From Luteitalea sp. (GTDB lineage Bacteria > Acidobacteriota > Vicinamibacteria > Vicinamibacterales > Vicinamibacteraceae), in contig WHTT01000064.1 in assembly GCA_009377605.1 (NCBI GenBank), positions 1-36,623 of the forward strand: a DNA stretch of 36,623 nt. Reading direction: 5' to 3'. Shown here one piece after another: positions 7,586-36,623 of the stretch (the first letter of the stretch is position 1; each line of letters opens with the position of its first letter). Both the position numbers and the translations under genes were made by a program. The notes under the pieces are model-generated. The model was not told the DNA's origin and did not search any database. It saw only the letters and a list, made by a program, of their open reading frames with translations.

Positions 7586-8122
7586 ATGTCGCGTATTGGT
7601 AAGAAGCCGATTCCTATCCCGGCGAACGTGAAGATCGCGCTCGACAATGGCACTGTCGAGGTGCAGGGGCCCAAGGGGACGTTGCGCCAGCGTGTGCCGA
7701 ACGGCATCCGGTTCGAGCTGCACGACCAGCAGCTCGTGGCACAGGACCCGGACGACGGACGCGCGGGAGCGAAGTTCCACGGCTTGGCGCGCAGCCTCGT
7801 GGCGAACGCCGTGGCCGGCGTGTCCGAGGGCTTCAAGCGGGAGCTCGACATCGTCGGGGTCGGCTACCGCGCCGAGGTGAAGGGCCGGCAGGTGCAGTTC
7901 GCGTTGGGCTACTCGCACCCGGTCGTGTTCGACATCCCCGAGGGTATCGAGATCGCGGTCGACAGGAACACCCACGTCGTGGTGTCGGGCATCGACAAGC
8001 AACGCGTGGGGCAGGTGGCTGCGAACATTCGGGCACTGCGCAAGCCCGATCCGTACAAGCAGAAAGGGATTCGCTACACGGGCGAGGTGCTGAAGAAGAA
8101 GGTCGGGAAGACCGGTGCGTAA
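7586..8122 (+). CDS. rplF: 50S ribosomal protein L6
   Basis: L6 sits at the base of the L7/L12 stalk near the factor site. The ATG at 7586 ([16 protein letters not shown]) is the family start, 4 nt after rpsH; a longer frame from 7529 only reads through rpsH. It has 178 residues, normal, with the two duplicated domains; the second ends [20 protein letters not shown] and [16 protein letters not shown] 67-nt joint to rplR holds a heptamer array. Confidence 0.97.
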
Positions 8123-8125
8123 GAA

Positions 8126-8190
8126 GCGATCAGCCGTCAGCGAGCTGATAGCTAAGCTGATCGCTGAGCGCTGAGAGCTGAGAGCTGAGA
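8126..8190. repeat. Inverted heptamer array, GCTGAGN family (rplF-rplR joint)
   Basis: Right arm: five 7-nt units in exact register, GCTGATC (8156), GCTGAGC (8163), GCTGAGA (8170), GCTGAGA (8177), GCTGAGA (8184-8190). The A that ends the last unit is the A of the rplR ATG. The left arm is partial: GCGATCAGC (8126-8134) pairs with GCTGATCGC (8156-8164). It is the only copy in the window. Confidence 0.85.
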
Positions 8191-8564
8191 TGAAGATACG
8201 AACGAAGAAGGATCGCCGGCACCGCATCAAGCTGCGGATTCGCAAGAAGATGCGTGGGACGGCAGAGCGGCCGCGACTGGTCGTGTTCCGGAGCGTGGCG
8301 CACATCTCGGTGCAGATCGTCGATGACTCGGTGGGCCGCACGATGGCCGCCGCCTCGAGCACGGAACCGGACGTACGCGGGAAGCTCGCCGACGGCGCGC
8401 GGTCGGGCAACGTGGCGGGCGCGCGCCTCATCGGCCGCGTGGTGGCGGAGCGATTGCTGGAACGGGGTGTGAAGCGAGTGGTCTTCGACCGAAACGGCTT
8501 CTTGTATCACGGGCGAGTGCGTGCTGTCGCGGAGGCCGCACGCGAGGCAGGGCTCGAGTTCTAA
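8190..8564 (+). CDS. rplR: 50S ribosomal protein L18
   Basis: L18 carries 5S rRNA into the large subunit. The 124-residue product has the basic N-terminus ([18 protein letters not shown]), [20 protein letters not shown] and the C-terminal [21 protein letters not shown]. The start codon is directly fused to a GCTGAGA array with no Shine-Dalgarno except GAG triplets of the repeat. The 110 nt before rpsE hold a family 1 hairpin. Confidence 0.97.
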
Positions 8565-12914: not shown

Positions 12915-13139
12915 ATGATGGAGGAAGCGGCGGGACTGCCGGGAACGATTGTCGAGCTGTTGCCGCGGCGTCTGTTTCGTGTGGCGCTCGACTCACGCCA
13001 GGGCGGCTCGGTGGTGGCGCACATGACCGATTCGGTGCGCCGCAATTTCGTTCGGCTGATCGAGGGTGACCGCGTGCTCGTCAAGCTTTCTCTCTACGAC
13101 GTCACGAAAGGCCGAATCATTGGGAGAATCACTGAGTAG
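12915..13139 (+). CDS. infA: Translation initiation factor IF-1
   Basis: IF-1 blocks the 30S A site during initiation. The S1-like OB fold is clear: GTIVELLPRRLFRVALD, then VVAHMTDSVRRNFVRLIEGDRVLVKLSLYDVTKGRIIGR. The 74-residue product has a short insertion (SRQGGS) in the strand 2-3 turn compared with the ~72-residue standard. Two ATGs in a row (12915, 12918) can serve. The last residues T-E and the TAG are inside the left arm of a palindrome repeat (13131-13142). Confidence 0.95.
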   Translation: MMEEAAGLPGTIVELLPRRLFRVALDSRQGGSVVAHMTDSVRRNFVRLIEGDRVLVKLSLYDVTKGRIIGRITE

Positions 13140-13168
13140 TGGCCAGTGGTCAGTGACCACTACTCAGT
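13131..13168. repeat. AGTGGTC-family inverted array (infA stop to rpmJ)
   Basis: Perfect 12-bp arms ACTGAGTAGTGG (13131-13142) and CCACTACTCAGT (13157-13168) enclose a 14-nt loop. Read as units it is a 7-nt tandem: AGTGGCC, AGTGGTC, AGTGACC, ACT. The left arm supplies the last sense codon and the TAG stop of infA (13137-13139). Confidence 0.88.
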
Positions 13169-13314: not shown

Positions 13315-13318
13315 GGAG

Positions 13319-13403
13319 GTGCTTGGTTCTTGGTCCTTGGCGCGGCTTCGGCGCGCCCCAATGCCAAGGCGCACCAAGCACTAAGAACCAAGAACCAAGG
13401 ACC
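13319..13403. repeat. Inverted heptamer array, CTTGGTN family (rpmJ-rpsM joint)
   Basis: Left arm units CTTGGTT (13322), CTTGGTC (13329), CTTGGCG (13336). The right arm 13364-13403 is the inverted counterpart (CCAAGGCGC, then AGAACCAAGAACCAAGGACC). It is the second copy of the family first seen at 677-764, with different unit order. It ends 7 nt before the rpsM ATG. Confidence 0.9.
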
Positions 13404-13410
13404 AGAGACT

Positions 13411-16053: not shown

Positions 16054-16059
16054 CGAGTG

Positions 16060-16087
16060 CCACTGGCCACTGACCACTGGCCACTAC
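16060..16087. repeat. CCACTGR heptamer array (rpoA-rplQ joint)
   Basis: Four 7-nt units in exact register: CCACTGG (16060), CCACTGA (16067), CCACTGG (16074), CCACTAC (16081). It is the complement-strand word of the AGTGGYC family (13131-13168). Here the array is nearly all in one orientation, flanked by GAGTG on the left and TCAGC on the right. Confidence 0.88.
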
Positions 16088-26156: not shown

Positions 26157-27137
26157 ATGCCTGTGCTTCGCCTCTTGCTCATAATCACTTGCTGGGCGGT
26201 TTCGGCCGCCGGCGCTACCGCGCAACCCATCGAGCTCATCGGGGCCCGCGCCCTTGGCATGGGCGGCGCGTTCGTCGCCGTTGCCGACGATGCCACGGCA
26301 ACGTATTGGAACCCGGCGGGCCTCGCCTTCGGTGGTCTCTTCAGCACCGTCGTCGAGCGAGCGGAGCTGAAAGCCGGCGTCCGAGAGGCTGCGGCGATGC
26401 CCAAGCGCCAGGCATCATCCAGCTTCATCGGATTGACGTCGCTCCAGCTGGGCCTCAGCTACTACCGCCTCAGTGAGACCACAGCGCGTACCGATGGCCC
26501 GGCCGCGTCTGGAACGTCAGAGCTTCAATCGCTCGTGACACAGCAGGCCGGCGTGACCCTCTTGCAGTCCATCGTGCCCAGCTTCGCCATTGGGACGACG
26601 CTGAAGCTCGTGCGTGGCCGTGCCGCACACGCGGTCGTGACCGATGCGGGGACGGGGCCGATCGACACAGCCGAAGATCTGCCCAGTCACAGCAGCACCG
26701 CTTTCGATCTGGACGTTGGCGCGATGGCCTCGGTCGGCCTCCTCCGCGTGGGGGTGGTCGTACGGAATGTACGTGAGCCCACGTTCGAGGCGCCCGACGA
26801 GACCGCTTTGTCCCTCTCGCGCCAAGCACGCATTGGCGTGGCGCTGGTGGCGCGGCGCGCCTGGGCCCTTGCCGTCGATGCCGACCTGACACGTGCCGAC
26901 ACCGTGCTTGGAGAGCGCCGTAACCTGGCTGCAGGCGTCGAGCGCTGGTTACTCGGCTACCGATTGGGCCTCCGTGGCGGCGTGCGCATCAATACCGTGG
27001 GAGGAGACACGCACCCCGTGGGAAGCCTCGGCGCGACCCTGCACCTGACCCCGACATTCGCGGTTGACGCCCATTGGGCCGACAGCGAGTCCCCGGCCGA
27101 TCGCAGCTGGGGAGTCGCGGGGCGCGTAGCCTTCTAA
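26157..27137 (+). CDS. Outer-membrane beta-barrel protein, TraF/PorV-like
   Basis: The 326-residue product starts with a signal peptide (LRLLLIITCWAVSAAGATAQ). Directly after comes IELIGARALGMGGAFVAVADDATATYWNPAGLA, the hallmark of the UPF0164/PorV/TraF-like barrel group. The remainder alternates short amphipathic strands and ends in RSWGVAGRVAF, with a C-terminal phenylalanine as in outer-membrane barrels. Proteins of this group act as outer-membrane ports or secretion accessories. The position 200 nt before pilB suggests a link to the pilus or secretion machine, which is inference. No Shine-Dalgarno is visible before ATG 26157. Confidence 0.75.
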   Translation: MPVLRLLLIITCWAVSAAGATAQPIELIGARALGMGGAFVAVADDATATYWNPAGLAFGGLFSTVVERAELKAGVREAAAMPKRQASSSFIGLTSLQLGLSYYRLSETTARTDGPAASGTSELQSLVTQQAGVTLLQSIVPSFAIGTTLKLVRGRAAHAVVTDAGTGPIDTAEDLPSHSSTAFDLDVGAMASVGLLRVGVVVRNVREPTFEAPDETALSLSRQARIGVALVARRAWALAVDADLTRADTVLGERRNLAAGVERWLLGYRLGLRGGVRINTVGGDTHPVGSLGATLHLTPTFAVDAHWADSESPADRSWGVAGRVAF

Positions 27138-27309
27138 TCGTACGCCAGTTTTCCTCGTTCGGCAGCCATTTTCCTCGCCCCGGGCCGGCTTCTGCGGGTG
27201 CGCAAAAACTGCCATCTCACCAGTTCTTATCGTTGCAGGCTTCGCACTCCAGCAGGGGGCTACACGCAGAAGGCGCCGGTTTTTTGCCCGCCCAGACGCT
27301 GGTGCCGGC

Positions 27310-27325
27310 GGGCAGGGAGTTTGCT
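27310..27325 (+). promoter_or_regulatory. Candidate sigma-54 promoter before pilB
   Basis: GGGCAG-GGAGT-TTGCT fits the TGGCAC-N5-TTGCT consensus with GG (27311-27312) and GC (27323-27324) exactly 10 nt apart. Transcription would start near 27336, two bases before the chosen GTG of pilB, giving an almost leaderless mRNA. GG-N10-GC alone is common in GC-rich DNA; the extra GGCA and TTGCT matches raise the weight. Confidence 0.5.
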
Positions 27326-27337
27326 CCTAGACGAGGC

Positions 27338-29044
27338 GTGACCATCGCACTGGGCCAGCTCCTCGTCGACGCCGGCATCCTCTCGAAGGGGGAGATTGAA
27401 ACTGCCGAGCAGCACCAAAAGCTCCAGGGTGGCAGCCTGGAGGCTTGCCTCGTCGCGCTGCACCTCGTCACCGAAGTGGACATCGCGGCGGCCCTCGGTT
27501 GGCACTACGGCGTGCCCGCGGTTGATCTCACGCGGGTGATTCCATCCGCGGACGCTCTCGCAGCCGTACCCGCCAGCGTGGCTCATCGACGACGTCTTCT
27601 GCCGTTGCACACGTCCGGTCGAACGTTGACGGTGGCGATGGCCGATCCGTCCGACCTTGGCGCGCTCGACGAGCTGCGCTTCTTGACCGGCTGTCGCGTG
27701 CATGCGGTCGTGGCATCTGAACGTGCGATAGACGAAGCGCTGCAAGGCGAGTATCCGGCGAGCGCGCCGCTCGAGCAGGCCACGCGTCGGCTCGAGCAGG
27801 AGCCGACGGCGTCAGGAGACGAGGCAGCACAGCGCGGGGGCGTCGCGGTCGAGCTCCCCGTCGCTTCCAGCGCAGGCGACGAGGCGCCTGTCGTGGCGCT
27901 GGTGAACGAGCTACTGCGGGCGGCGGCCCAGCGTGGCGCCAGCGACGTGCACGTGGAGCCGGGCGAGCGCGACGTGCGCGTCCGCCTCCGCGTCGATGGG
28001 GTGCTGCACCCGGTGATGGCGCTTCCGCTCCGCGTGCGCGACGCGCTCGTCGCACGCATCAAGGTGCTCGCCGACCTCGACATCGCCGAGCGCCGCCTAC
28101 CCCAAGATGGACGAATCAGGCTGCGCCTCGCTGGTGCGTTGGGCCGTCTGTTGGACGTACGCGTCTCGTCATTGCCCGCGCTCCACGGCGAGAAGCTCGT
28201 GCTCCGACTGCTGGACCGCGAACAGCTTCGTCTCGATCTTGGCGCGCTTGGCGTGGAGCCGTCTGCGCAGTCGGCCTTCGAGGCGGCGGTCGCGCGCCCG
28301 TGGGGGATGGTGCTCGTGACGGGACCGACCGGCAGCGGCAAGACCAACACGCTGTACTCCGCGATCGCTCGCCTCGACACCACGCACCGCAACGTCCTCA
28401 CGGTCGAGGACCCGGTCGAGATCCACCTGCCTGGTCTCACACAGGTCCAAGTGCACGAAGCGATTGGCCTGAGCTTTGCAGCGGTCCTGCGTGCGTTCTT
28501 GCGGCAGGACCCGGACGTGCTGCTGGTTGGGGAGATTCGTGATCGCGAGACCGCACAAATCGCCGTGCGCGCCGCCCTCACAGGACACCTGGTCTTTTCG
28601 ACGCTGCACACCACCGACGCGGCGGCGGCGGTCATGCGCCTGGTCGACATGGGTATCGAGCCCTTCCTCGTGGCCGGCGCGGTCTCGCTCGTGTGTGCGC
28701 AGCGCCTTGTCAGGCGCGCGTGTCCCTTCTGTTGCCGGCCCGAAGCCGTCCCGCCGCACGTCGTTCGCTCGCTCGGGCTCGCCGATGAAGACGCCGCGCC
28801 GCTGACCTCTGTCTCCCCCAGTGGCTGCCCGCGGTGCCACCAAACGGGCTATCGAGGGCGCATCGGGCTCTTCGAGGTGATGCGCATGACTGAATCGCTG
28901 CGCGAGCTCGTGATTGACGGCGCGCCGCTCCACCGGCTACGCGCGCAAGCGATAGACGAGGGGATGCAGACGCTCCGAGAGAGCGGTTTGCGGAAGGTAC
29001 GCGATGGCATCACGACCATCGAGGAAGTCCTTCGAGAAACGTAG
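27338..29044 (+). CDS. pilB: Type IV pilus/type II secretion assembly ATPase
   Basis: This hexameric ATPase drives pilus extension from the inner-membrane face. The 568-residue product from GTG 27338 has an N-terminal MshEN/T2SSE-N domain (IALGQLLVDAGILS; LGWHYGVPAVDL). Walker A GPTGSGKT is at 329-336, the Asp box EDPVEIH from 357 and Walker B LLVGEIRD around 399. A zinc tetracysteine follows, CPFC then CPRCHQTGY near residue 500. In-frame codons upstream to 27074 overlap the preceding gene and lack family similarity. PilB is preferred over GspE because of the pilus neighbours. No pilT retraction ATPase follows. Confidence 0.88.
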   Translation: MTIALGQLLVDAGILSKGEIETAEQHQKLQGGSLEACLVALHLVTEVDIAAALGWHYGVPAVDLTRVIPSADALAAVPASVAHRRRLLPLHTSGRTLTVAMADPSDLGALDELRFLTGCRVHAVVASERAIDEALQGEYPASAPLEQATRRLEQEPTASGDEAAQRGGVAVELPVASSAGDEAPVVALVNELLRAAAQRGASDVHVEPGERDVRVRLRVDGVLHPVMALPLRVRDALVARIKVLADLDIAERRLPQDGRIRLRLAGALGRLLDVRVSSLPALHGEKLVLRLLDREQLRLDLGALGVEPSAQSAFEAAVARPWGMVLVTGPTGSGKTNTLYSAIARLDTTHRNVLTVEDPVEIHLPGLTQVQVHEAIGLSFAAVLRAFLRQDPDVLLVGEIRDRETAQIAVRAALTGHLVFSTLHTTDAAAAVMRLVDMGIEPFLVAGAVSLVCAQRLVRRACPFCCRPEAVPPHVVRSLGLADEDAAPLTSVSPSGCPRCHQTGYRGRIGLFEVMRMTESLRELVIDGAPLHRLRAQAIDEGMQTLRESGLRKVRDGITTIEEVLRET

Positions 29045-29060
29045 TAGCACCAAGGATTAG

Positions 29061-29108
29061 GGCGCGCGTTCGCCGAACGCGCCGTTAGGACGCCTCGGCG
29101 AGGCGTCC
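29061..29108. repeat. Composite palindrome repeat, family 2 (pilB-pilC joint)
   Basis: Two adjacent hairpins: GGCGCGCGTTCGCCGAACGC ending CGCC (29061-29083) and GGACGCCTC-GGC-GAGGCGTCC (29088-29108, perfect 9 bp). The pair is framed by TTAGGG on the left and CCCTACC on the right. It fills most of the 82-nt joint. Confidence 0.88.
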
Positions 29109-29126
29109 CTACCATCAACGAAGGCA

Positions 29127-30323
29127 ATGCCCACATTTGTCTTTACCGGACGAGATCGCGATGGACGGGCGGTGACGGGCAGGCGAGACGCGGCCACGGC
29201 GGAGGCGGTGGCCGAGGCGCTCAGGCGCGACGGTCTTGTCGTCACGCGACTCGAGATGCGCCGAGCGAGCGCGCGACGACCCAAACGAGGGGTCGGCGCG
29301 CGCAAGCTGGCCGCCGCAACGCGGCAACTCGCGGCAATCCTTGCGGCTGGTCTTCCGCTCGTGCAGGCGCTCGACCTGCTCGCACGACAGGCCGCGCCGC
29401 CTCGTTTTGCCGAGGTGATACGGACGCTCGTGCACGACGTGGCGCGCGGAACGGCCCTCTCGGAGGCCATGGCGCGTCATCCGCAGATCTTCGGCTCCGT
29501 CTACACGAGCACCGTGGCGGCCGGCGAGCGTGCGGGAGCGCTGGCGGCCACCCTTGCCCGCGTCGCCAGTCATCTCGAGCGTCACGCGGCACTCCTCACG
29601 CGGCTGCGCGCGGCGCTCATGTATCCTGCGGTTGTCACTGGAGTCACCGTCGTGGTGGTCCTGCTTTTGGTGTGGAAGGTCGTGCCGGTGTTCGCGTCCC
29701 TCTTCGCAGGCCTCGACGCCCCACTCCCTTGGCCGACCCGCTTCGTGGTCGCAGCGAGCACCGCGCTCGTGGCCATCGCGCCCGCGTCCGTCTGTTCGGC
29801 GGCGCTCGCCGTGCTCGGCCTGCGTCTGACCTACCGGCGGCCGCGGGGCAAACTGCTCCTGGACCGTGCCATCTTGCGCATTCCGGGCCTCGGCCGGCTG
29901 GTTCGAGACGCCGCGACGGCGCAGTGCTGCCGGACGCTCTCGACGCTCGTTGCCGCCGGCGTCCCACTCATCGAAGCGCTGAACGTAGCGGCGCGGACGG
30001 CCGGTAACCGGGTGGTGGAGATGAGGCTGGTAGCCGCGCGGAGCCGCACCGCGAGTGGTGAGCTGCTCTCGGATGCGCTGGGAGCCACAGGGGACTGGCC
30101 TCCCCTGATGCTTCAGATGGTCGGGATCGGGGAGACGACGGGCGCGCTCGACACGATGCTCGACCGGGCCGCCGAGACGGCCGAGGAGGCGCTGGACCGA
30201 GCGACACAGACAATCGTCACGCTCGCCGAGCCCACGTTGATCCTCGTTCTGGGCATCGTGGTGGGAGGCCTCGTCGTATCGCTCTATCTGCCGCTCTTCG
30301 AGCTCATTGGCCGTCTGTCGTAG
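29127..30323 (+). CDS. pilC: Type IV pilus inner-membrane platform protein
   Basis: The 398-residue product is a GspF/PilC protein. It starts MPTFVFTGRDRDGRAVTG, the family N-terminus, and has two copies of the T2SSF helical domain: TRQLAAILAAGLPLVQALDLL (about 65-190) and CRTLSTLVAAGVPLIEALNVA (about 272-390). Hydrophobic helices are at about 172-195, 211-235 and 370-390, and it ends PLFELIGRLS. It couples PilB to pilin insertion. There is weak AAGG 3-6 nt before the ATG. The 447 nt downstream, before the pilin gene, are noncoding. Confidence 0.9.
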   Translation: MPTFVFTGRDRDGRAVTGRRDAATAEAVAEALRRDGLVVTRLEMRRASARRPKRGVGARKLAAATRQLAAILAAGLPLVQALDLLARQAAPPRFAEVIRTLVHDVARGTALSEAMARHPQIFGSVYTSTVAAGERAGALAATLARVASHLERHAALLTRLRAALMYPAVVTGVTVVVVLLLVWKVVPVFASLFAGLDAPLPWPTRFVVAASTALVAIAPASVCSAALAVLGLRLTYRRPRGKLLLDRAILRIPGLGRLVRDAATAQCCRTLSTLVAAGVPLIEALNVAARTAGNRVVEMRLVAARSRTASGELLSDALGATGDWPPLMLQMVGIGETTGALDTMLDRAAETAEEALDRATQTIVTLAEPTLILVLGIVVGGLVVSLYLPLFELIGRLS

Positions 30324-30352
30324 TGCAGCGAACGTCTAAAGGGGGGCAGGGC

Positions 30353-30505
30353 GTGACGTGGTGACTAGGTGACTGGGTGACAAGGTGATGAGGTCGTTTG
30401 AGCGTCGTAGGCCAACCGCATACGCCGCAGCCTCCCGTTGCCCGAATAACCTCCTCACCTTGTCACCCAGTCACCCAGTCACCCTGTTACCCTGTTACCC
30501 TGCCC
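30353..30505. repeat. Inverted octamer array, GTGACTGG family (pilC-pilin spacer)
   Basis: Left arm: five 8-nt units in register, GTGACGTG (30353), GTGACTAG, GTGACTGG, GTGACAAG, GTGATGAG (to 30392). Right arm: six inverted units from 30451, CTCCTCAC, CTTGTCAC, CCAGTCAC, CCAGTCAC, CCTGTTAC, CCTGTTAC, then CCTGCCC matching GGGCAGG at 30345-30351. The 58-nt centre includes TACGCCGCAG, which recurs outside the right arm at 30522. The 8-nt period sets it apart from the 7-nt arrays. Confidence 0.9.
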
Positions 30506-30625
30506 TTGACCGGAGTTGGCGTACGCCGCAGGATGAGAGGGGCGAGTACGTGGGATTTCAGGGTGCATCGACCGAAGGGATTGTCGGACAGGGAGTTGCG
30601 GGTGCGCACTGGATCGAGCGGCGAC

Positions 30626-30641
30626 GGGCACGCGGATTGCT
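30626..30641 (+). promoter_or_regulatory. Candidate sigma-54 promoter before the pilin gene
   Basis: GGGCAC-GCGGA-TTGCT matches TGGCAC-N5-TTGCT at ten of eleven defined positions; GG (30627-30628) and GC (30639-30640) are 10 nt apart. The start would be near 30652, leaving a ~119-nt leader containing the family 2 hairpins. A weaker GG-N10-GC site (30586-30599) is 40 nt upstream. TGTC-G-GACA at 30582-30590 could be an activator half-site pair of PilR type. pilA genes in Pseudomonas, Myxococcus and Geobacter are sigma-54 dependent, which supports the reading. Confidence 0.6.
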
Positions 30642-30688
30642 CGTCGCGAGGCAGAGCAAACAACGTTTCGTGCCCTAGTTCACAGCAC

Positions 30689-30749
30689 GGCGCGTTCAGC
30701 GAACGCGCCCTACCAGGGTGGAAGGTAGGGACGTCTCGCCGAGGCGTCC
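30689..30749. repeat. Composite palindrome repeat, family 2 (pilin leader)
   Basis: GGCGCGTTC-AGC-GAACGCGCC (30689-30709, perfect 9 bp) then CTACC, a 15-nt spacer, and GGACGTCTCGCCGAGGCGTCC (30729-30749, one mismatch) preceded by GTA. The two hairpin types are the same as at 29061-29108. It ends 12 nt before the GGAGG of the pilin gene. Confidence 0.85.
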
Positions 30750-30770
30750 GTCACTCGTCCGGAGGATTTT

Positions 30771-31307
30771 ATGACCGCGCGCGACAGCCACGGCTTCACA
30801 CTCATTGAGCTTCTGATCGTTGTGGCCATCATCACCATCATTGCGGCGTTTGCGATTCCCAATCTGATGAGGTCGCGCACGGCCGCCAATGAAGCGTCCG
30901 CGCTAGCCTCCCTGAAGGCCATTGGCGGCGCCCAGCAGGTGTACTCTGCTACCGCTGCCGGGGGGGGATTTGCGGACGCGCTGCCCACACTCGGCATCCC
31001 GTGCGGTGGTACAGGCCAGGCATTTCTCGGTGCAGACCTCACCGGTGGCCCGACGGCGGTCAAGAGCGGATACACGGTTGGCCTCACGGCTGCCAGTGGT
31101 GCGGCTGACGGTCCGATCGACTGCAACGGCACCACGACCACGACCGGCTACTACGCGACAGCCGTACCCGTCGCGCTGGGCCAGACGGGAAGCCGCGGCT
31201 TCGCGAGCGACGCGTCAATCGCGATCTGGGAGAACACGGGCGGCGCCGCGCCCAGCGAGGCGGAGATGACCAGCCCGCCGACGCAGACCGTGCACCCCAT
31301 CAGGTAG
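30771..31307 (+). CDS. pilA: Type IV pilin, probable major subunit
   Basis: The 178-residue prepilin has a short leader MTARDSHG, then the processed N-terminus FTLIELLIVVAIITIIAAFAIPNL with the essential Glu5. PilD should cut between G8 and F9 and N-methylate the phenylalanine. The helix continues through RTAANEASALASLKAIGGAQQVY. The globular part is Gly/Thr/Ala-rich and has two cysteines (IPCGG, IDCNG), likely a disulfide. GGAGG lies 6 nt before ATG. It is the only full pilin in view; the abundance of the product is inferred from its own promoter-like region. It could instead be a GspG-type pseudopilin. Confidence 0.85.
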   Translation: MTARDSHGFTLIELLIVVAIITIIAAFAIPNLMRSRTAANEASALASLKAIGGAQQVYSATAAGGGFADALPTLGIPCGGTGQAFLGADLTGGPTAVKSGYTVGLTAASGAADGPIDCNGTTTTTGYYATAVPVALGQTGSRGFASDASIAIWENTGGAAPSEAEMTSPPTQTVHPIR

Positions 31308-31382
31308 CGCCGGAAGACCGCGCCCGGGGCCCTCCGCGGCGCTCGTGCTACGATCCAGCCAGCAACCACGCTGGGAGAAGGC

Positions 31383-32675
31383 ATGACGAAGGCGGATGCA
31401 GGCCCCGGGAAACAGCAGGGGAAGCAGCAGGGGAAGAGGCCCGGGAACAGACCCGAGGAGATGTCCAGGAAGCACCCTGTGAAGTGGCTTCTGGCGGCCT
31501 TTGCGCTGTTGGGGCTCGCCGCATCGGTAGCCGCTGCCTTCGTGCATTATCAGCTCCTGACCATCCCGGACTATCAGAGCATCTGTGACATCAACGCGAC
31601 CTGGAGTTGCGCGAGCGCGTACCTGAGTCAGTACGGCAGCTACTTGGGCATCCCCGTGGCCGTCCTTGGTGCCCTGTTTTTCACGGCCGTCTCGCTCTTG
31701 TTGGTGGCCGACCACCGGGGCAGCCAATCGGCCATGAGCGTGGTCGTTCTGTTGTCCTCGGTCGGCTTGGCGTTCGTCTTGTATCTGGGTTATGCAACGT
31801 TCTTCCTGCTGAAGACCATCTGCATCATTTGCCTGATCACGTATGTCGCTGCCATCGGGCTCTTCGTGGTGGCCAACGTGATCATGAGACTTCCTATGCG
31901 CACGCTCCCTCAGTTCGTTCGCCACGACCTTCGCGGCCTTGCACGGAACCCGATCGCGTTGGGCCTCACGCTGCTCTTTCTCGCTGGCGCCACCACGGCC
32001 ATCGCGTACTTCCCACGCGAGGCGGCCACGGTCTCGGCACAGGAGGGCGGCGCGACTCAGGCACAAGCCGTCCAGCGCGAGCTCGCACCTGAGGAGCGTG
32101 CGCAGGTCGAGAGAGCGTTCGATGCCATGCCGCGCAGCATCGTGCCGGTCGCCGCGGCGGGCGCCAAGGTCGTGATTGTGAAGTTCAACGACTTTCAGTG
32201 TCCCGCCTGCGCCAACGCCCACAACATGTACAAGCCACTGCTCGAACGGTGGGAACAGGAGGCTCCCGGTCAGGTGAAGCTGTTCGTCAAGGATTTCCCG
32301 CTCGAGCCCGAGTGCAACACGAGCGTCAAGCGCGACGTGCATGCGGCGGCATGCGAGGCGGCGGCCGCGGTTCGGCTCGCCCGCCAGCAGCAGAAGGACG
32401 TCGCGCTGGAGGAATGGTTTTACGGCAATCAAGGAGCGATGACGCCAGAGACCGTGCGGACCGCAGCACGCGATGTCGGCGGTGTCCAGCAGTTCGACAC
32501 CCGTTACCAATCCGCCTTGGAAGGCGTGAAGACCGACGTCGCCCTCGCCAGCACGCTCGGCGTCTCAGCCACGCCGACCATCTTCATCAACGGCGTGAAG
32601 CTGGATGGCCTCCCGCCACCCAATGTCCTCGACGCGGTCATTGCTTACGAGCTGCGCAAGGCGAGCTCGCAGTAG
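31383..32675 (+). CDS. VKOR-DsbA fusion, disulfide bond-forming oxidase
   Basis: This 430-residue fusion makes disulfides and re-oxidises itself through quinone. After a polar Lys/Gln/Gly-rich N-tail with a 12-nt DNA repeat (GKQQGKQQGK) comes a VKOR domain with about four to five helices (34-210). Its loop cysteines are C68 and C76 and its active CxxC is C147-C150 (CIIC). The second half is a periplasmic thioredoxin-like DsbA domain: FNDFQCPAC (C273, C276), cis-proline P398 in SATPT, and an extra pair C311 and C324. GGGAG lies ~6 nt upstream of the ATG. The position 75 nt after a two-cysteine pilin gene suggests the pilin is a client. Confidence 0.92.
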   Translation: MTKADAGPGKQQGKQQGKRPGNRPEEMSRKHPVKWLLAAFALLGLAASVAAAFVHYQLLTIPDYQSICDINATWSCASAYLSQYGSYLGIPVAVLGALFFTAVSLLLVADHRGSQSAMSVVVLLSSVGLAFVLYLGYATFFLLKTICIICLITYVAAIGLFVVANVIMRLPMRTLPQFVRHDLRGLARNPIALGLTLLFLAGATTAIAYFPREAATVSAQEGGATQAQAVQRELAPEERAQVERAFDAMPRSIVPVAAAGAKVVIVKFNDFQCPACANAHNMYKPLLERWEQEAPGQVKLFVKDFPLEPECNTSVKRDVHAAACEAAAAVRLARQQQKDVALEEWFYGNQGAMTPETVRTAARDVGGVQQFDTRYQSALEGVKTDVALASTLGVSATPTIFINGVKLDGLPPPNVLDAVIAYELRKASSQ

Positions 32676-32683
32676 AGACCTAG

Positions 32684-32727
32684 GTAGGGACGCCTCGCCG
32701 AGGCGGCCGTTGGCGAATGCGCCCTAC
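32684..32727. repeat. Composite palindrome repeat, family 2, partly deleted
   Basis: GTAGGGACGCCTCGCCGAGG (from 32684) is followed by only half of the second hairpin (GGCGAATGCGCC), closed by CTAC at 32727. The outer GTAGGG/CCCTAC ends are kept, so the inner part seems to have lost bases while the ends were retained. Confidence 0.78.
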
Positions 32728-32744
32728 TGCGGGCCTAGTTGACA

Positions 32745-32763
32745 CGCGTCACAGTTTGACGCG
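32745..32763. promoter_or_regulatory. 7-bp inverted repeat at the start of the ABC gene
   Basis: CGCGTCA (32745-32751) and TGACGCG (32757-32763) pair around CAGTT, ending 3 nt before the ATG at 32767. It covers the place of the ribosome-binding site, so it may be an operator or an RNA stem that limits initiation. No Shine-Dalgarno is visible otherwise. Confidence 0.4.
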
Positions 32764-32766
32764 CCC

Positions 32767-33735
32767 ATGTCCGATGTTGCCATCGAGACGCGCGCGCTGA
32801 CGAAAGACTACTCGGTCGGCTTCTGGCGGTCGCGCCCACGGCGCGTCGTCGATGGCTTGACGCTCACGTCTGCGCGCGGCGAGATTCTAGGTCTCCTGGG
32901 GCCCAACGGCGCCGGGAAGAGCACCACCCTCAAGATTCTCGCTGGCCTCGTCTTTGCGACCAGCGGCGAAGCTCGTGTCCTGGGCAGCCCGCCCGGTTCC
33001 AAGGCAATCCTCGGGGCGGTGGGCTACCTGCCCGAGCAGCCCGCGTTCCCAAGCAGGCTCACGGCGGAAGAGTTGCTCGACGTTGCACTCCGCCTGCACG
33101 GTGAGCGCAGCCGGGCGGCACGTCAACGTCGAGTGGCTGCAGCGCTCGATCGTGTGGGGATCGGAGCGGAGCGTCGGAGAGCCTCCGGCCGCCTGTCCAA
33201 GGGTGAGCTCCAGCGCGTTGGGCTGGCACGCGCGCTGGTGCACGAACCGACCGTGCTGCTGTTGGATGAGCCGATGTCGGGCCTGGATCCCAACGGCCGC
33301 CTGCTCGTGCGCGATATTCTCTTGCAGGCGCGCGATGAGGGACGGACCATCTTCTTCAGCTCCCACATCCTGCCAGATGCCGAGGCGCTCTGCGGTCGAG
33401 TGGCGATGCTCACCAGAGGTCGATTGGTCGCCATCGGTGCGCTCGGCGAGCTCGGCGCCCTTGCTCCACGTGGCTGGGAGCTCATCGTGGAAGGCGTGAG
33501 CGAGGCAGTCCTCTCTCGTCTCGGAGTCGCGGGAGAAGCCACCCGTATCGACGCCAATCGATGGCGATTCCGCATCGACCAGACCTCACGACCCGAGCCG
33601 TTGGTCGATGAGCTGAGACGAGAAGGGGCCTTGCTCGTGTCGCTCGAGCCTCGGGTCGAGACGCTCGAAGAGGTCTTCCTCCGCCACACAGGCTTCGCAC
33701 CAAAGCAGCGTGACGCAGGAGAGGCCGAGCCTTGA
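32767..33735 (+). CDS. ABC-2 type transporter ATPase of the pilus cluster (PilH-like)
   Basis: The 322-residue ATPase has Walker A GPNGAGKST, Q-loop YLPEQ, signature LSKGELQRVGLARAL (LSKGE for LSGGQ), Walker B VLLLDEPMSGLDP and H-loop SSHIL, then a ~90-residue C-terminal regulatory part as in CcmA/NatA-type subunits. The placement between a pilin gene and prepilin peptidase resembles M. xanthus PilH, an ABC ATPase needed for pili; the equivalence is inference from order, not proven homology. Its TGA overlaps the next start (TTGA). Confidence 0.85.
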   Translation: MSDVAIETRALTKDYSVGFWRSRPRRVVDGLTLTSARGEILGLLGPNGAGKSTTLKILAGLVFATSGEARVLGSPPGSKAILGAVGYLPEQPAFPSRLTAEELLDVALRLHGERSRAARQRRVAAALDRVGIGAERRRASGRLSKGELQRVGLARALVHEPTVLLLDEPMSGLDPNGRLLVRDILLQARDEGRTIFFSSHILPDAEALCGRVAMLTRGRLVAIGALGELGALAPRGWELIVEGVSEAVLSRLGVAGEATRIDANRWRFRIDQTSRPEPLVDELRREGALLVSLEPRVETLEEVFLRHTGFAPKQRDAGEAEP

Positions 33736-34547
33736 TCGCGACGATGCGCAGCATCGGCACGCTGGCCATCGCGACCCTTCGAGAATACCTGCGTGAGCGC
33801 GGGCTGCACGCTCTCATCGTCCTGATCTGGATAGTGACATTCGCCGCCGCCGCATTGGGAGAGCTCAGCGCCGGAGAGCGAACGCGAGTGGTGACGGATA
33901 TCGGCCTTGCCGCGACGCGGCTAGGTGGGCTCTGCGCTGCGCTGTTCTTTGGTGCCGCCGTCGTGGCACGCGAGGTCGAGCAGCGAAGCGCGGCAACAAC
34001 CCTCACGGCGCCTATTGGGCGCCCGGCATGGCTGTTGGGGCGGTTCAGCGGAGCCCTTCTCGCAGTCGTCGTGTTGGTGATGCTCGCCGGGGGCGTACTG
34101 TGCATGGTGGCCGCGGCTGTGACGACGCCCGCCTTCCCACACGTGGCGGGGGCGACGAGCCGGTTGGATGTGGCCCTTCGACTCCTACCCGCGCTGCTCT
34201 TGGTGACAATCGAGCTGATGGTGGTGGCGGCTGTCGCGACCATGTTCTCGGCGTTCTCGAGCCATCTCTTCGCGTTTGGCTGTGCGTTCGGGTTGTGGGT
34301 AGCGGGTCACTATGCTCAGGCGGCTGCGCATCTCACCGCCAACGCCTCGTCTGCTCCGGTCAGCGTGCTCAATGGCGCGCTGTGGCTTCTCCTCCCCAAC
34401 GTTTCCTCGTTCGGCGCTGCGACTCGTATCGCACAGGGCGAGGCGGTGCGAAGCGGGGAAGTGGCGCTCGCGGCGGCGTACGGGGTCCTGTATGCCGCAG
34501 CGGCCCTAGCGATTGGCAATGGCCTCTTCGCGCGAAGGGATGTTTAG
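33732..34547 (+). CDS. ABC-2 type permease of the pilus cluster (PilI-like)
   Basis: The 271-residue protein has six hydrophobic segments, e.g. GLHALIVLIWIVTFAAAAL, LGGLCAALFFGAAVVA, FSGALLAVVVLVMLAGGVL, ALLLVTIELMVVAAVATMF, LFAFGCAFGLWVAGHYA and VALAAAYGVLYAAAALAIG, the ABC-2 permease topology. The start is probably TTG 33732, overlapping the ATPase stop, with AGGAG 10 nt upstream; ATG 33744 is the alternative. With the preceding ATPase it makes one transporter. The substrate is unknown. The last residues FARRDV precede a 42-nt gap. Confidence 0.82.
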   Translation: MIATMRSIGTLAIATLREYLRERGLHALIVLIWIVTFAAAALGELSAGERTRVVTDIGLAATRLGGLCAALFFGAAVVAREVEQRSAATTLTAPIGRPAWLLGRFSGALLAVVVLVMLAGGVLCMVAAAVTTPAFPHVAGATSRLDVALRLLPALLLVTIELMVVAAVATMFSAFSSHLFAFGCAFGLWVAGHYAQAAAHLTANASSAPVSVLNGALWLLLPNVSSFGAATRIAQGEAVRSGEVALAAAYGVLYAAAALAIGNGLFARRDV

Positions 34548-34589
34548 CCGAGGCGTCCGGACGACTGTCGGCGTTCTCACGGGCGTGAC

Positions 34590-35480
34590 GTGCGTATAAC
34601 TGCCTTTCTCATCGGCTGTGTGCTGCTCCTGTCGGCGTTGGCCGTGCAGGTAGTCCTCGAGCGGACACGTCTGCAGGCCGCCGCGGCAGCGCCAGGCGAG
34701 ATGCCGCACGCGCGCATGGCGCCGATGTTGAGGTTGTTGGGGGTTCCGTTTCCTGCGGTGGCGGCTGACATCTGTTGGATTGTGGCGGTCCAGCACTTCG
34801 CGAGCTTGCGTCATGCGCCTGATCCGGCGGCCGACGAGGCGCTGGTCGAGTTGATCGATCTCACTGTGACGCTCGATCCGGCCTTCATCTCCGGGTACCG
34901 GACTGGCGCAGCCCTCCTCGCCGAACCGCCCCCGATGGGACCGGGCGACGTCCAGGGGGCGCTTGGTGTGCTGAGAAAAGGGATCGGCGTGTCCCCCGAG
35001 CGCTGGGAGCTACTCTTCGACGAGGGATTTCTGCAGTATCGGTCGCTTCGACGGTACGATGAGGCCGCCGCCTCGTTTCTTCGGGCCAGCCGGCTGAGCG
35101 GCGCCCCATGGTGGCTGAGGCCGCTTGCTGCGAACACGCTCGCCGAGGGCGGCAGGCGACCGGCTGCTCGCGCGTTGTGGCGAGCGCAGCTCGACGAGAC
35201 CCGCCCGGAGTGGATGCGCCGGCAGGCGGAGCGGAGGCTCGATCAGCTCGATGCGCTGGACGAGATCGATCGCCTTCAAGGGATCGTGGACGAGGCACGC
35301 AGGAGCGGATTGCAGCCGCCGTACTCGTGGGATGCGCTGCGGCTCGCTGGGCGGCTCCAGGCGCCGCCGCGGGATCCCGGCGGCACGCCGTACATAATCG
35401 AGCCGACGACGGGGCGCGTGACGTTGTCACCCGTCTCTCCGCTGGCGCCGTTACCTGCCGAAGGCGGATTCGTGCCTTGA
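34590..35480 (+). CDS. Membrane-anchored helical-repeat protein of unknown function
   Basis: The 296-residue product starts at GTG 34590 with a signal anchor (MRITAFLIGCVLLLSALAVQVVLE). A conserved-looking patch AAPGEMPHARMAPMLRLLGVPFPAVAADICWI follows, and then TPR-like helical pairs (FDEGFLQYRSLRRYDEAAASFLRASRL, LAANTLAEGGRRPAARALWRAQL). The tail ending PTTGRVTLSPVSPLAPLPAEGGF is unstructured. It is set in the pilus operon between the permease and prepilin peptidase; in M. xanthus a third protein, PilG, accompanies PilH and PilI, and this may be a functional counterpart. I do not recognise a named family. Confidence 0.7.
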   Translation: MRITAFLIGCVLLLSALAVQVVLERTRLQAAAAAPGEMPHARMAPMLRLLGVPFPAVAADICWIVAVQHFASLRHAPDPAADEALVELIDLTVTLDPAFISGYRTGAALLAEPPPMGPGDVQGALGVLRKGIGVSPERWELLFDEGFLQYRSLRRYDEAAASFLRASRLSGAPWWLRPLAANTLAEGGRRPAARALWRAQLDETRPEWMRRQAERRLDQLDALDEIDRLQGIVDEARRSGLQPPYSWDALRLAGRLQAPPRDPGGTPYIIEPTTGRVTLSPVSPLAPLPAEGGFVP

Positions 35481-35521
35481 CCGTTTTGAGCGTCGAGGAG
35501 TGAGGAAGAGCAGGACGACCA

Positions 35522-36292
35522 ATGACACCGAGCGCTCAGGCGGCGGCCGTCGCGTTCTTCGCGCTGGGCGGTCTTGCCATCGGCAGCTTTCTCAACGTCT
35601 GTATCCATCGGCTGCCGCGGCGCCAGTCGCTTGTTCTGCCGGCGTCCTATTGTCCGTCGTGCGAGCAGCCGATCAGTTGGTTCCACAACGTGCCGCTCGT
35701 CGGTTACCTCTGGCTGCGAGGCCGGTGCGCGATGTGCCAGGCGCGAATCTCTCCACGCTACCCGCTCGTGGAGCTCGCGACCGCGCTCCTGTTCGTCGCC
35801 AACTTTCTCGCTTTTGGCTGGCAGCCGCTCCTCGCCGCGCGGCTTCTCTTCTCCTCCCTGCTCATCATCCTGTTCGTCGTGGACCTCGAGCATCGTCTGC
35901 TACCGAATGCCGTCACGCTGCCCGGGTTGCTCGTGGGCCTCATTCTCAGCGCGGTGATGCCGCCCGGTTGGGGAGAGGCGCTGCTGGGCGTCGTGCTTGG
36001 GGGTGGCGTGCTGTGGGTCATCGGCGAGACGTACGAGCGCTTTCGGGGTGAGCAAGGCCTCGGCATGGGCGACGTCAAGATGATCGCCATGATCGGTGCG
36101 TTTCTTGGATGGAAGTCGATGCTCGTGACGCTGGTGCTCGCTTCTTTTGCGGGCGCCGCGGTTGGGCTCTTGCTCATCGTCATTCGCCGAGCCTCGATGC
36201 AGTACGCCCTGCCGTTTGGCAGCTTTCTCGCCGCAGGCGCATTCGTCGCAAGCCTGTACGGTGCCCGCCTCCTTGACTGGTATCTGCGCTGA
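35522..36292 (+). CDS. pilD: Type IV prepilin peptidase/N-methyltransferase
   Basis: It cleaves prepilin leaders and methylates the new N-terminus. The 256-residue product has the N-terminal methylase domain with two CxxC pairs (C44, C47, C69, C72), the motif FLNVCIHRLPRRQS, and the two catalytic aspartates D121 (FVVDLEHRLLPN) and D184 (GLGMGDVKM). Eight or so hydrophobic helices follow the usual plan. It should process both the pilin at 30771 and the pseudopilin at 36531. It starts 41 nt after the preceding stop and is followed by a terminator hairpin. Confidence 0.94.
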   Translation: MTPSAQAAAVAFFALGGLAIGSFLNVCIHRLPRRQSLVLPASYCPSCEQPISWFHNVPLVGYLWLRGRCAMCQARISPRYPLVELATALLFVANFLAFGWQPLLAARLLFSSLLIILFVVDLEHRLLPNAVTLPGLLVGLILSAVMPPGWGEALLGVVLGGGVLWVIGETYERFRGEQGLGMGDVKMIAMIGAFLGWKSMLVTLVLASFAGAAVGLLLIVIRRASMQYALPFGSFLAAGAFVASLYGARLLDWYLR

Positions 36293-36294
36293 GC

Positions 36295-36319
36295 AGAAAA
36301 GATGACAGGCATCTTTTCT
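36295..36319. terminator. Terminator after prepilin peptidase gene
   Basis: AGAAAAGATG (36295-36304) and CATCTTTTCT (36310-36319) pair perfectly (10 bp) around ACAGG, 3 nt after the pilD stop. The right arm is T-rich and the left arm A-rich, fitting an intrinsic, possibly bidirectional terminator. It ends the pilus operon before a new promoter-like region. Confidence 0.65.
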
Positions 36320-36343
36320 TAGTGCTACTGGCGGGGCGAGTTA

Positions 36344-36360
36344 GGCACAATGCTTGTGCC
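36344..36360. repeat. Small perfect hairpin GGCACAA-TGC-TTGTGCC
   Basis: A perfect 7-bp stem with a 3-nt loop, 25 nt after the terminator hairpin. It may be a second terminator or an operator; nothing else identifies it. Confidence 0.45.
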
Positions 36361-36502
36361 ACGTTGCTCCCGACTTCGATCGGCTTAGTCCTTCGCAGAT
36401 CCTGCGATCTCCTTGCGCGTCACTGCTGCAGCTTCTGCTAGCGCTTTGCGCGTGGCGGCCGGTATCACAAAGACCAGCGCGCGTTTTCCTTCCCTGTCCT
36501 GG

Positions 36503-36518
36503 TGGCGTGGTGCTTGCA
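36503..36518 (+). promoter_or_regulatory. Candidate sigma-54 promoter before the last pseudopilin gene
   Basis: TGGCGT-GGTGC-TTGCA has GG (36504-36505) and GC (36516-36517) 10 nt apart and full TGGC and TTGCW matches. The ATG at 36531 is 14 nt after the -12 C, exactly as at pilB (27324 to 27338). The mRNA would start ~2 nt before the ATG. Confidence 0.5.
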
Positions 36519-36530
36519 CTACCGCTTCCC

Positions 36531-36623
36531 ATGGACCGATGGCAGCAAAGCCAGCCCTGTGCGGTGCACGGCTTCACGCTCATCGAGTGCGTCACGGCGC
36601 TCGCCATCATCGTGGTGCTGGCC
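36531..36623 (+). CDS. Pseudopilin/minor pilin, N-terminal part (partial)
   Basis: Thirty-one codons are visible. After a 14-residue leader (MDRWQQSQPCAVHG) comes FTLIECVTALAIIVVLA, the class III prepilin signal with Gly before Phe and Glu at +5. This identifies a pilin-like protein of a pilus or type II secretion tip complex; the class cannot be told without the rest. A GTG a few codons before the cleavage site could also start it, but the 14-nt spacing to the promoter-like site supports ATG 36531. Confidence 0.8.
   Translation, partial: MDRWQQSQPCAVHGFTLIECVTALAIIVVLA

Follow-up and report, generated by a model that had tools for sequence, protein, structure and literature searches.

An inverted array of GTGAC octamers at the end of a pilC-type gene in Luteitalea sp. 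and its place in a dispersed repeat family

The STRR heptamers of cyanobacteria, as they are generally described, form intergenic tandem heptamer arrays, whereas the repeats that we report here, the GTGAC family of Luteitalea sp., consist of inverted octamers. In the sections of PMC4692102 considered here, arrays of G-rich heptamers are described from Xanthomonas (GGGAATC) and Nostoc (GGGGA(C/T)T). The Xanthomonas arrays occupy more than 180 places per genome, with 70 and 75 convergent inverted pairs; they are mostly intergenic, lie near or overlap the upstream stop, are few in divergent gaps and vary in length between species (PMC4692102). In Xanthomonas axonopodis, transcript starts and stops are more frequent at quadruplex-forming repeats than at control repeats, and arrays without a quadruplex motif are described in the same source. 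The TAACTGA repeats of Beggiatoaceae, in the part of PMC4679880 drawn on here, resemble the GTGAC family in being intergenic arrays of a short unit (a heptamer) with a patchy distribution across phyla; however, they are direct and lie mostly just 5' of start codons, whereas the GTGAC arrays are inverted and lie at gene ends. The GTAG-tagged REP palindromes are likewise dispersed and mostly intergenic, but, compared with the REPs and REPINs as presented in the corresponding part of PMC3733652, the GTGAC family lacks the GTAG tag and is built of tandem units, and no RAYT gene flanked by octamers was found. Among the papers listed by a literature search, none deals with the GTGAC octamer. The closest published kind is the Xanthomonas GGGAATC heptamer arrays, and the GTGAC array is an octamer variant of this known kind. 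Unlike the 7-nt Xanthomonas units, it has a period of 8, while families of period 7 coexist in its own genome.

The window, by which we mean the whole analysed stretch of 36,623 nt, contains two facing arrays of 8-nt units in the gap that leads from a pilC-type gene with a T2SSF domain to a pilin-like gene. The pilC-type ORF (29127..30323, plus strand; Pfam PF00482, E 1.6e-54) ends with a TAG stop 29 nt before the left arm and thus outside the array. The left arm (30353..30392, plus strand) consists of five GTGACNNG-type octamers, four of them exact, in the order GTGACGTG GTGACTAG GTGACTGG GTGACAAG GTGATGAG. It is followed by a spacer of 58 nt (30393..30450, no strand assigned), whose first 14 nt, GTCGTTTGAGCGTC, open the spacers at two loci, this one and L251:8517. 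The right arm (30451..30498, minus strand) holds six inverted octamers, three of them exact, which read GTAACAGG GTAACAGG GTGACTGG GTGACTGG GTGACAAG GTGAGGAG on the minus strand. The five units facing six that the first-pass annotation had described are therefore present if some tolerance is allowed, but not at strict octamer identity, since four of the 11 units are degenerate and exact identity to GTGACNNG is confined to the remaining 7. The same annotation had the ends closed by GGGCAGG/CCTGCCC; indeed GGGCAGGG (30344..30351) and CCCTGCCC (30498..30505), neither assigned a strand, form a perfect 8-nt inverted pair, but the left member begins at 30344, before the start of 30353 that had been given for the array. 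The end of CCCTGCCC is overlapped by CCCTTGAC, which aligns with a small hairpin of the congener G001. Among the outer 30-nt flanks of the GTGAC family, GGCAGG is found in 11 of 88, against 3.3 in shuffles and 1.5 in gene 3' flanks.

Complementarity between the arms reaches 82% along 51 nt, and the RNA fold of 30335-30515 has an energy of -106.6 kcal/mol, compared with -62.0 +/- 4.4 in 200 shuffles, none of which was as good (z -10); the transcript is thus predicted to adopt a very stable hairpin. Taken singly, the octamer is no rarity in the window, with 36 matches where 30.3 are expected; the signal is the tandem and inverted arrangement, not the lone octamer. The right arm together with the closing arm matches the canonical G-quadruplex motif on the minus strand, and the left arm does not. 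No match was obtained in the window with Rfam at gathering scores, nor in a phage collection searched in near mode with window positions 27000-36623.

The pilin-like gene (30771..31307, plus strand) encodes a prepilin N-terminal methylation motif (Pfam PF07963, E 7.1e-09). Upstream of it is a sigma-54-like -24/-12 site, GGGCACGCGGATTGC (30626..30640, plus strand), with 10 of 11 bases of the fixed-base consensus generally given for sigma-54; when 2000 segments of 450 bp were drawn at random from contig C1, 11 scored at least 10. With the T2SSF gene 5' and this site and the methylation-motif gene 3', the array indeed lies between pilC and a probable pilin promoter, as had been proposed. A scan of 30250-30800 gave no sigma-70-like promoter and 0 U-tract terminator-like sites, only loops of 3-8 being allowed. 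Among the features of an intrinsic terminator, the array thus has a GC-rich hairpin, and a U-tract is absent in that scan.

In G001, a member of the same genus whose pilC is 76% identical, the array is absent from the pilC-pilin gap. At the same point there is a small hairpin, GGGGTCAAGGGATC-CGTTG-CCCCTTGAC, up to which the flanks align; its energy is not beyond that of shuffles (z -0.3 over 101 nt), and it would read like units of the AAGGGNTC family. G001 also has a sigma-54 consensus match of 10 of 11 at the aligned place, and the conserved sequence that precedes the promoter in the two species is on the 3' side of the array. By eye, no clean target-site duplication is present at the pilin site. 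Judged from these sequences, each species probably transcribes its pilin gene from a dedicated promoter, whether the array is present or absent. Since the sigma-54-like site is downstream in both, there is no need to suppose that the array is behind a separate transcription of the pilin gene; moreover, G001 keeps the same gene order and the site without the array, so that the array would be dispensable for separate pilin expression.

A search of the genome with the 201 nt around the array returned 106 matching pieces, the pilC-end array included. A three-unit pattern with at most one mismatch matched 442 times in the genome, and the reversed pattern 0 times. In 1,159,051 bases of the genome we found 117 arrays, which gave 44 inverted pairs, one of them (L266:17091) doubtful with overlapping arms. 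The GTGAC arm comes first in 44 of 44, so that the family, like the Xanthomonas arrays (PMC4692102, in the part considered), forms convergent inverted pairs. The pairing rule left 29 of the 117 arrays unpaired, some of which adjoin a pair. Because most of the 40 stretches added to this sample were centred on known copies, the 44 pairs are not a density; from the two largest contigs, C1 and C2, with 10 pairs in 352,554 bases, the genome total is extrapolated to roughly 190 pairs. The canonical quadruplex motif is present in 18 of the 44 elements but in only 21 of 88 arms, unlike the Xanthomonas arrays as described in that part of PMC4692102. As the same octamer family occurs at many other places in the genome, a pilin-specific role is not supported.

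According to gene calls from a purpose-made codon-pair predictor, not from annotation, 22 pairs lie in same-direction gaps, 16 in convergent and 4 in divergent ones, which accounts for 42 of the 44. The background of 797 gaps comprised 549 same-direction, 128 convergent and 120 divergent, giving an excess of pairs in convergent gaps (p 5e-4 vs 128/797; p 0.006 by intergenic bases). Within the same-direction gaps, 20 of 22 pairs lie closer to the upstream stop (p 6e-5). A TGA within the array terminates 24 of the 54 neighbour genes whose stop faces it; the family is thus intergenic and near or overlapping the upstream stop, as are the Xanthomonas arrays in the sections of PMC4692102 used. The TGA stops within arrays sit 4, 12 or 20 nt from the array edge, which is the expectation from the three frames of an 8-bp unit. 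When all unit families were pooled over 429 kb, the stop was the closer end for 16 of 21 arrays in same-direction gaps (p 0.013). GTGAC octamer elements favour gene ends genome-wide, and this stop-side preference puts the pilC-end array in the usual place of the family, although its TAG stop precedes the array by 29 nt.

The units themselves carry traces of how the arrays may have changed. Units two apart are more similar than permuted ones (0.270 vs 0.211 +/- 0.017; 0 of 300 permutations as high), which is what a 16-bp duplication would give, and adjacent units are not clearly above permutation (identity 0.223 vs 0.210; 56 of 300). Templated arms were rejected as a general rule, unit-order mirroring being 0.264 against 0.243 +/- 0.015, with 27 of 300 permutations as high. 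Locus-specific pairing of the arms was rejected as well: real pairs gave -1.626 and swapped pairs -1.651 kcal/mol per nt, and 36 of 40 swaps were equal or better. Taken together, the differing composition of the arms, their poorly mirrored order, the lag-2 similarity, the lack of locus-specific pairing and the existence of single-armed copies suggest growth and loss within each arm by slippage.

The spacers at C1:110007 and C2:89066 are 98% identical over 66 nt (including 4 nt of array at each end), while the displayed outer flanks differ, suggesting that copies are occasionally transferred. When 80 half-spacers were aligned, a possible inner motif emerged. TT[CT]G[AG][AG]C, picked from that alignment, occurs in 12 of the 80 inner halves, compared with 1 of the 88 outer flanks and an expectation of 0.8. 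A single common spacer core found no support, since the profile fails on held-out spacers, about 2 of 180 scores reaching 8 bits; this test comprised 29 spacers, excluding those outside 45-130 nt, those containing REPs and one of the near-identical pair. The profile search returned 31 places, mostly copies used to build the profile. We therefore do not claim one shared core, and the descent of all copies from one core is weakened.

The comparison with G001 was extended to 156 orthologous gaps, of which 22 have arrays in the genome under study, 18 in G001 and 5 in both (Fisher p 0.085). An earlier pass with a smaller sample and a wider gap limit gave 11 gaps with arrays only in our genome, 14 only in G001, 2 in both and 98 in neither (n=125). 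In four of the five common gaps the unit families differ, as judged by reading; the fifth (C7:86731 / L282:6731) has GTGAC units in both species, in different numbers. The detector found G001 to be without an array in 17 of our 22 array gaps, but it missed a single-armed G001 array in the gap C7:94368-94609, so that 17 is at least one too many and becomes 16 once that array is added. Compared with Xanthomonas as presented in the part of PMC4692102 at hand, the array gaps of the two species are thus mostly not common, although these congeners may be further apart. GTGAC-type doublets were found in G001 in 3 of 8 gaps that have GTGAC arrays in our genome and in 1 of the remaining 148 (Fisher p 3.5e-4); the motif had been picked after some of the sites had been seen. 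The idea of a hot spot for variation is thus supported between species only, in that the array is absent from G001 here and unit numbers differ at C7:86731; at the level of gaps a hot spot is not proven, sharing between the species being not significantly above chance (5/156, p 0.085).

The octamer is not the only unit of this kind in the genome. In a period survey of 429 kb (C1, C2, two pieces of C3 and the window), we found 26 arrays of period 7 and 37 of period 8, while periods 9 to 12 totalled 3; no array of any period from 7 to 12 occurred in shuffles. At period 6 there were 14 arrays against 1 in shuffles, and at period 5 there were 2 against 4. The unit families include GTGACNNG, AAGGGNTC, GGTCCTT, GAGTGAC, GGTTCGA and AGTGGCC; several unrelated families in one genome thus have a common architecture, unlike Xanthomonas in the account of PMC4692102 used here. 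In 60 of 61 inverted pairs that a family-blind detector found in sequence of both species, the first arm is the G-rich one as measured by its numbers of G and C, the G excess being only slight in units such as GGTCCTT. Outside the GTGAC family the figure was 36 of 37, and with a separate detector all 13 of the AAGGGNTC pairs were G-rich first. Ordinary palindromes also lean in this direction (44 G-rich first, 31 C-rich first and 11 equal in our genome; 21, 5 and 2 in G001), so that part of the polarity bias may be general. Within the window, heptamer arrays, several of them inverted, are found at 673-764, 8120-8192, 13137-13160, 13318-13405 and 16058-16085, in the gaps S10-L3, L6-L18, IF1-S13 (which may hold a small gene) and rpoA-L17; the detector found no array in the orthologous G001 gaps of this ribosomal region.

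GTAG-type REPs form a separate family in this genome and lie inside about five octamer-element spacers. Two facing GTAGGG-type palindromes, REPIN-like, are found at 30689-30748 of the window, just 5' of the pilin start, where the G001 sequence differs. A PF01797 search of the genome gave two Y1 transposase matches, and a Y1 (RAYT-like) gene with a 174-aa open frame (C22:23312, about 9312 of L286) has GTAG-type REP hairpins on its flanks; no octamers were seen in its printed flanks.

The recurrence of the octamer family in other genomes is very patchy. In the class sample of 193 genomes, four-unit matches numbered 139 in the genome under study, 7 in G001, and 3 and 1 in two others, and the remaining 189 of 193 had none. 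In the phylum sample, the AAG form with at most two mismatches matched 85 times in our genome and in 3 of 395 others (G240, 638; G251, 30; G410, 22), being absent from 392 of 396. The distant phylum member G240 (L295-L310) has 4 pairs in 284 kb, a sample that is partly copy-centred; their polarity agrees with that in our genome, and a stop lies next to every one of them. A wide scan with a five-unit pattern found the family in named contigs of several phyla, in at least 119 stretches, of which 80 are given as loci. Among the matches listed, many loci are within open frames of at least 150 codons (14 of 17 actinomycete loci, for example), so that the scan overstates the intergenic spread, and few of the 80 have an inverted arm within 400 nt. 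At one locus in an Acidobacteria MAG (L124) the arm order is opposite, by eye.

We consider it quite likely that this array is a copy of a non-coding repeat that is dispersed through the genome, lies mostly at gene 3' ends, changes by slippage and is now and then copied. The repeat would comprise two convergent arrays of the 8-bp unit GTGACNNG flanking a variable spacer, so that a long hairpin is possible in either transcript. Gene 3' ends would tolerate the insertion or growth of copies, slippage would make the arrays longer or shorter where they stand, and copies would occasionally be transferred to other places. At the pilC site, the array may have grown or been inserted in the lineage studied here, where G001 has the small hairpin only; we infer a gain here rather than a loss in G001. 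The array may locally affect transcription where pilC ends, most likely as a structured 3' end that might retard RNA polymerase on its way out of pilC or stop it in part, or protect the end of the transcript; such an effect would not be required for a separately promoted pilin gene.

A rival reading, in which the arrays are selected as transcription terminators or 3' RNA stabilisers for pilC and other genes, bidirectional by symmetry, seems to us somewhat doubtful. The transcription boundary that had been proposed is plausible, and agrees with the position 29 nt past the stop, the large hairpin (fold z -10), the gene-end preference and the excess in convergent gaps, and transcript starts and ends are enriched at the quadruplex-forming repeats of X. 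axonopodis (PMC4692102, in the part considered). However, there is no U-tract, swapped arms are as stable as real pairs (36/40), the unit order is hardly mirrored (27/300), and the arrays are missing from G001 in 17 of 22 orthologous gaps (16 after correction). An element of MITE or REPIN type, moved by a transposase, is unlikely. The two places with a near-identical spacer and different outer flanks, the array sites present in one congener only and the two Y1 transposase matches speak for it, but the Y1 gene is accompanied by GTAG-type REP hairpins and no octamers in its printed flanks, the pilin site has no clean target duplication by eye, most spacers are unrelated, and single-armed arrays occur.

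Activators of sigma-54 promoters can bind at distances such as 120 nt, and the array ends 120 nt before the sigma-54-like pilin promoter. A pilin-specific switch, in which changes in unit number alter pilin expression (phase variation), could also appeal to the different unit numbers at C7:86731; nevertheless, we regard it as very improbable, since the same family occurs at many other places and the stretch 5' of the promoter that is conserved between species lies 3' of the array. The pilC-end array probably belongs to the general repeat content of the genome and is no dedicated switch for pili, and such an array adjoining a pilin gene should not be taken for a pilin switch.

The several unrelated 7/8-mer families of one genome, with the same polarity and gene-end habit, and the very patchy recurrence of the octamer family suggest that the inverted G-rich short-unit arrays of Xanthomonas belong to a wider class. 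We also entertain, as a speculation with the odds well against it, a sequence-blind process by which short G-rich tandem arrays with units of 7 or 8 bp, lying at gene ends, become convergent inverted pairs; the G-rich nascent strand might be the template for fold-back copying. If true, such a process would explain the G-rich-first arms in units as unrelated as GTGACNNG, AAGGGNTC, GAGTGAC, GGTTCGA, GGGGCGA and others, the dominance of periods 7 and 8, and the different families at the same gene end in both congeners at some sites. The C22 stretches of G001 (L230-L235, L288-L292) carry a dispersed hairpin family of their own, with GGGGCGA/GGTGCAA heptamers and an inner CTGTCTCAGG stem.
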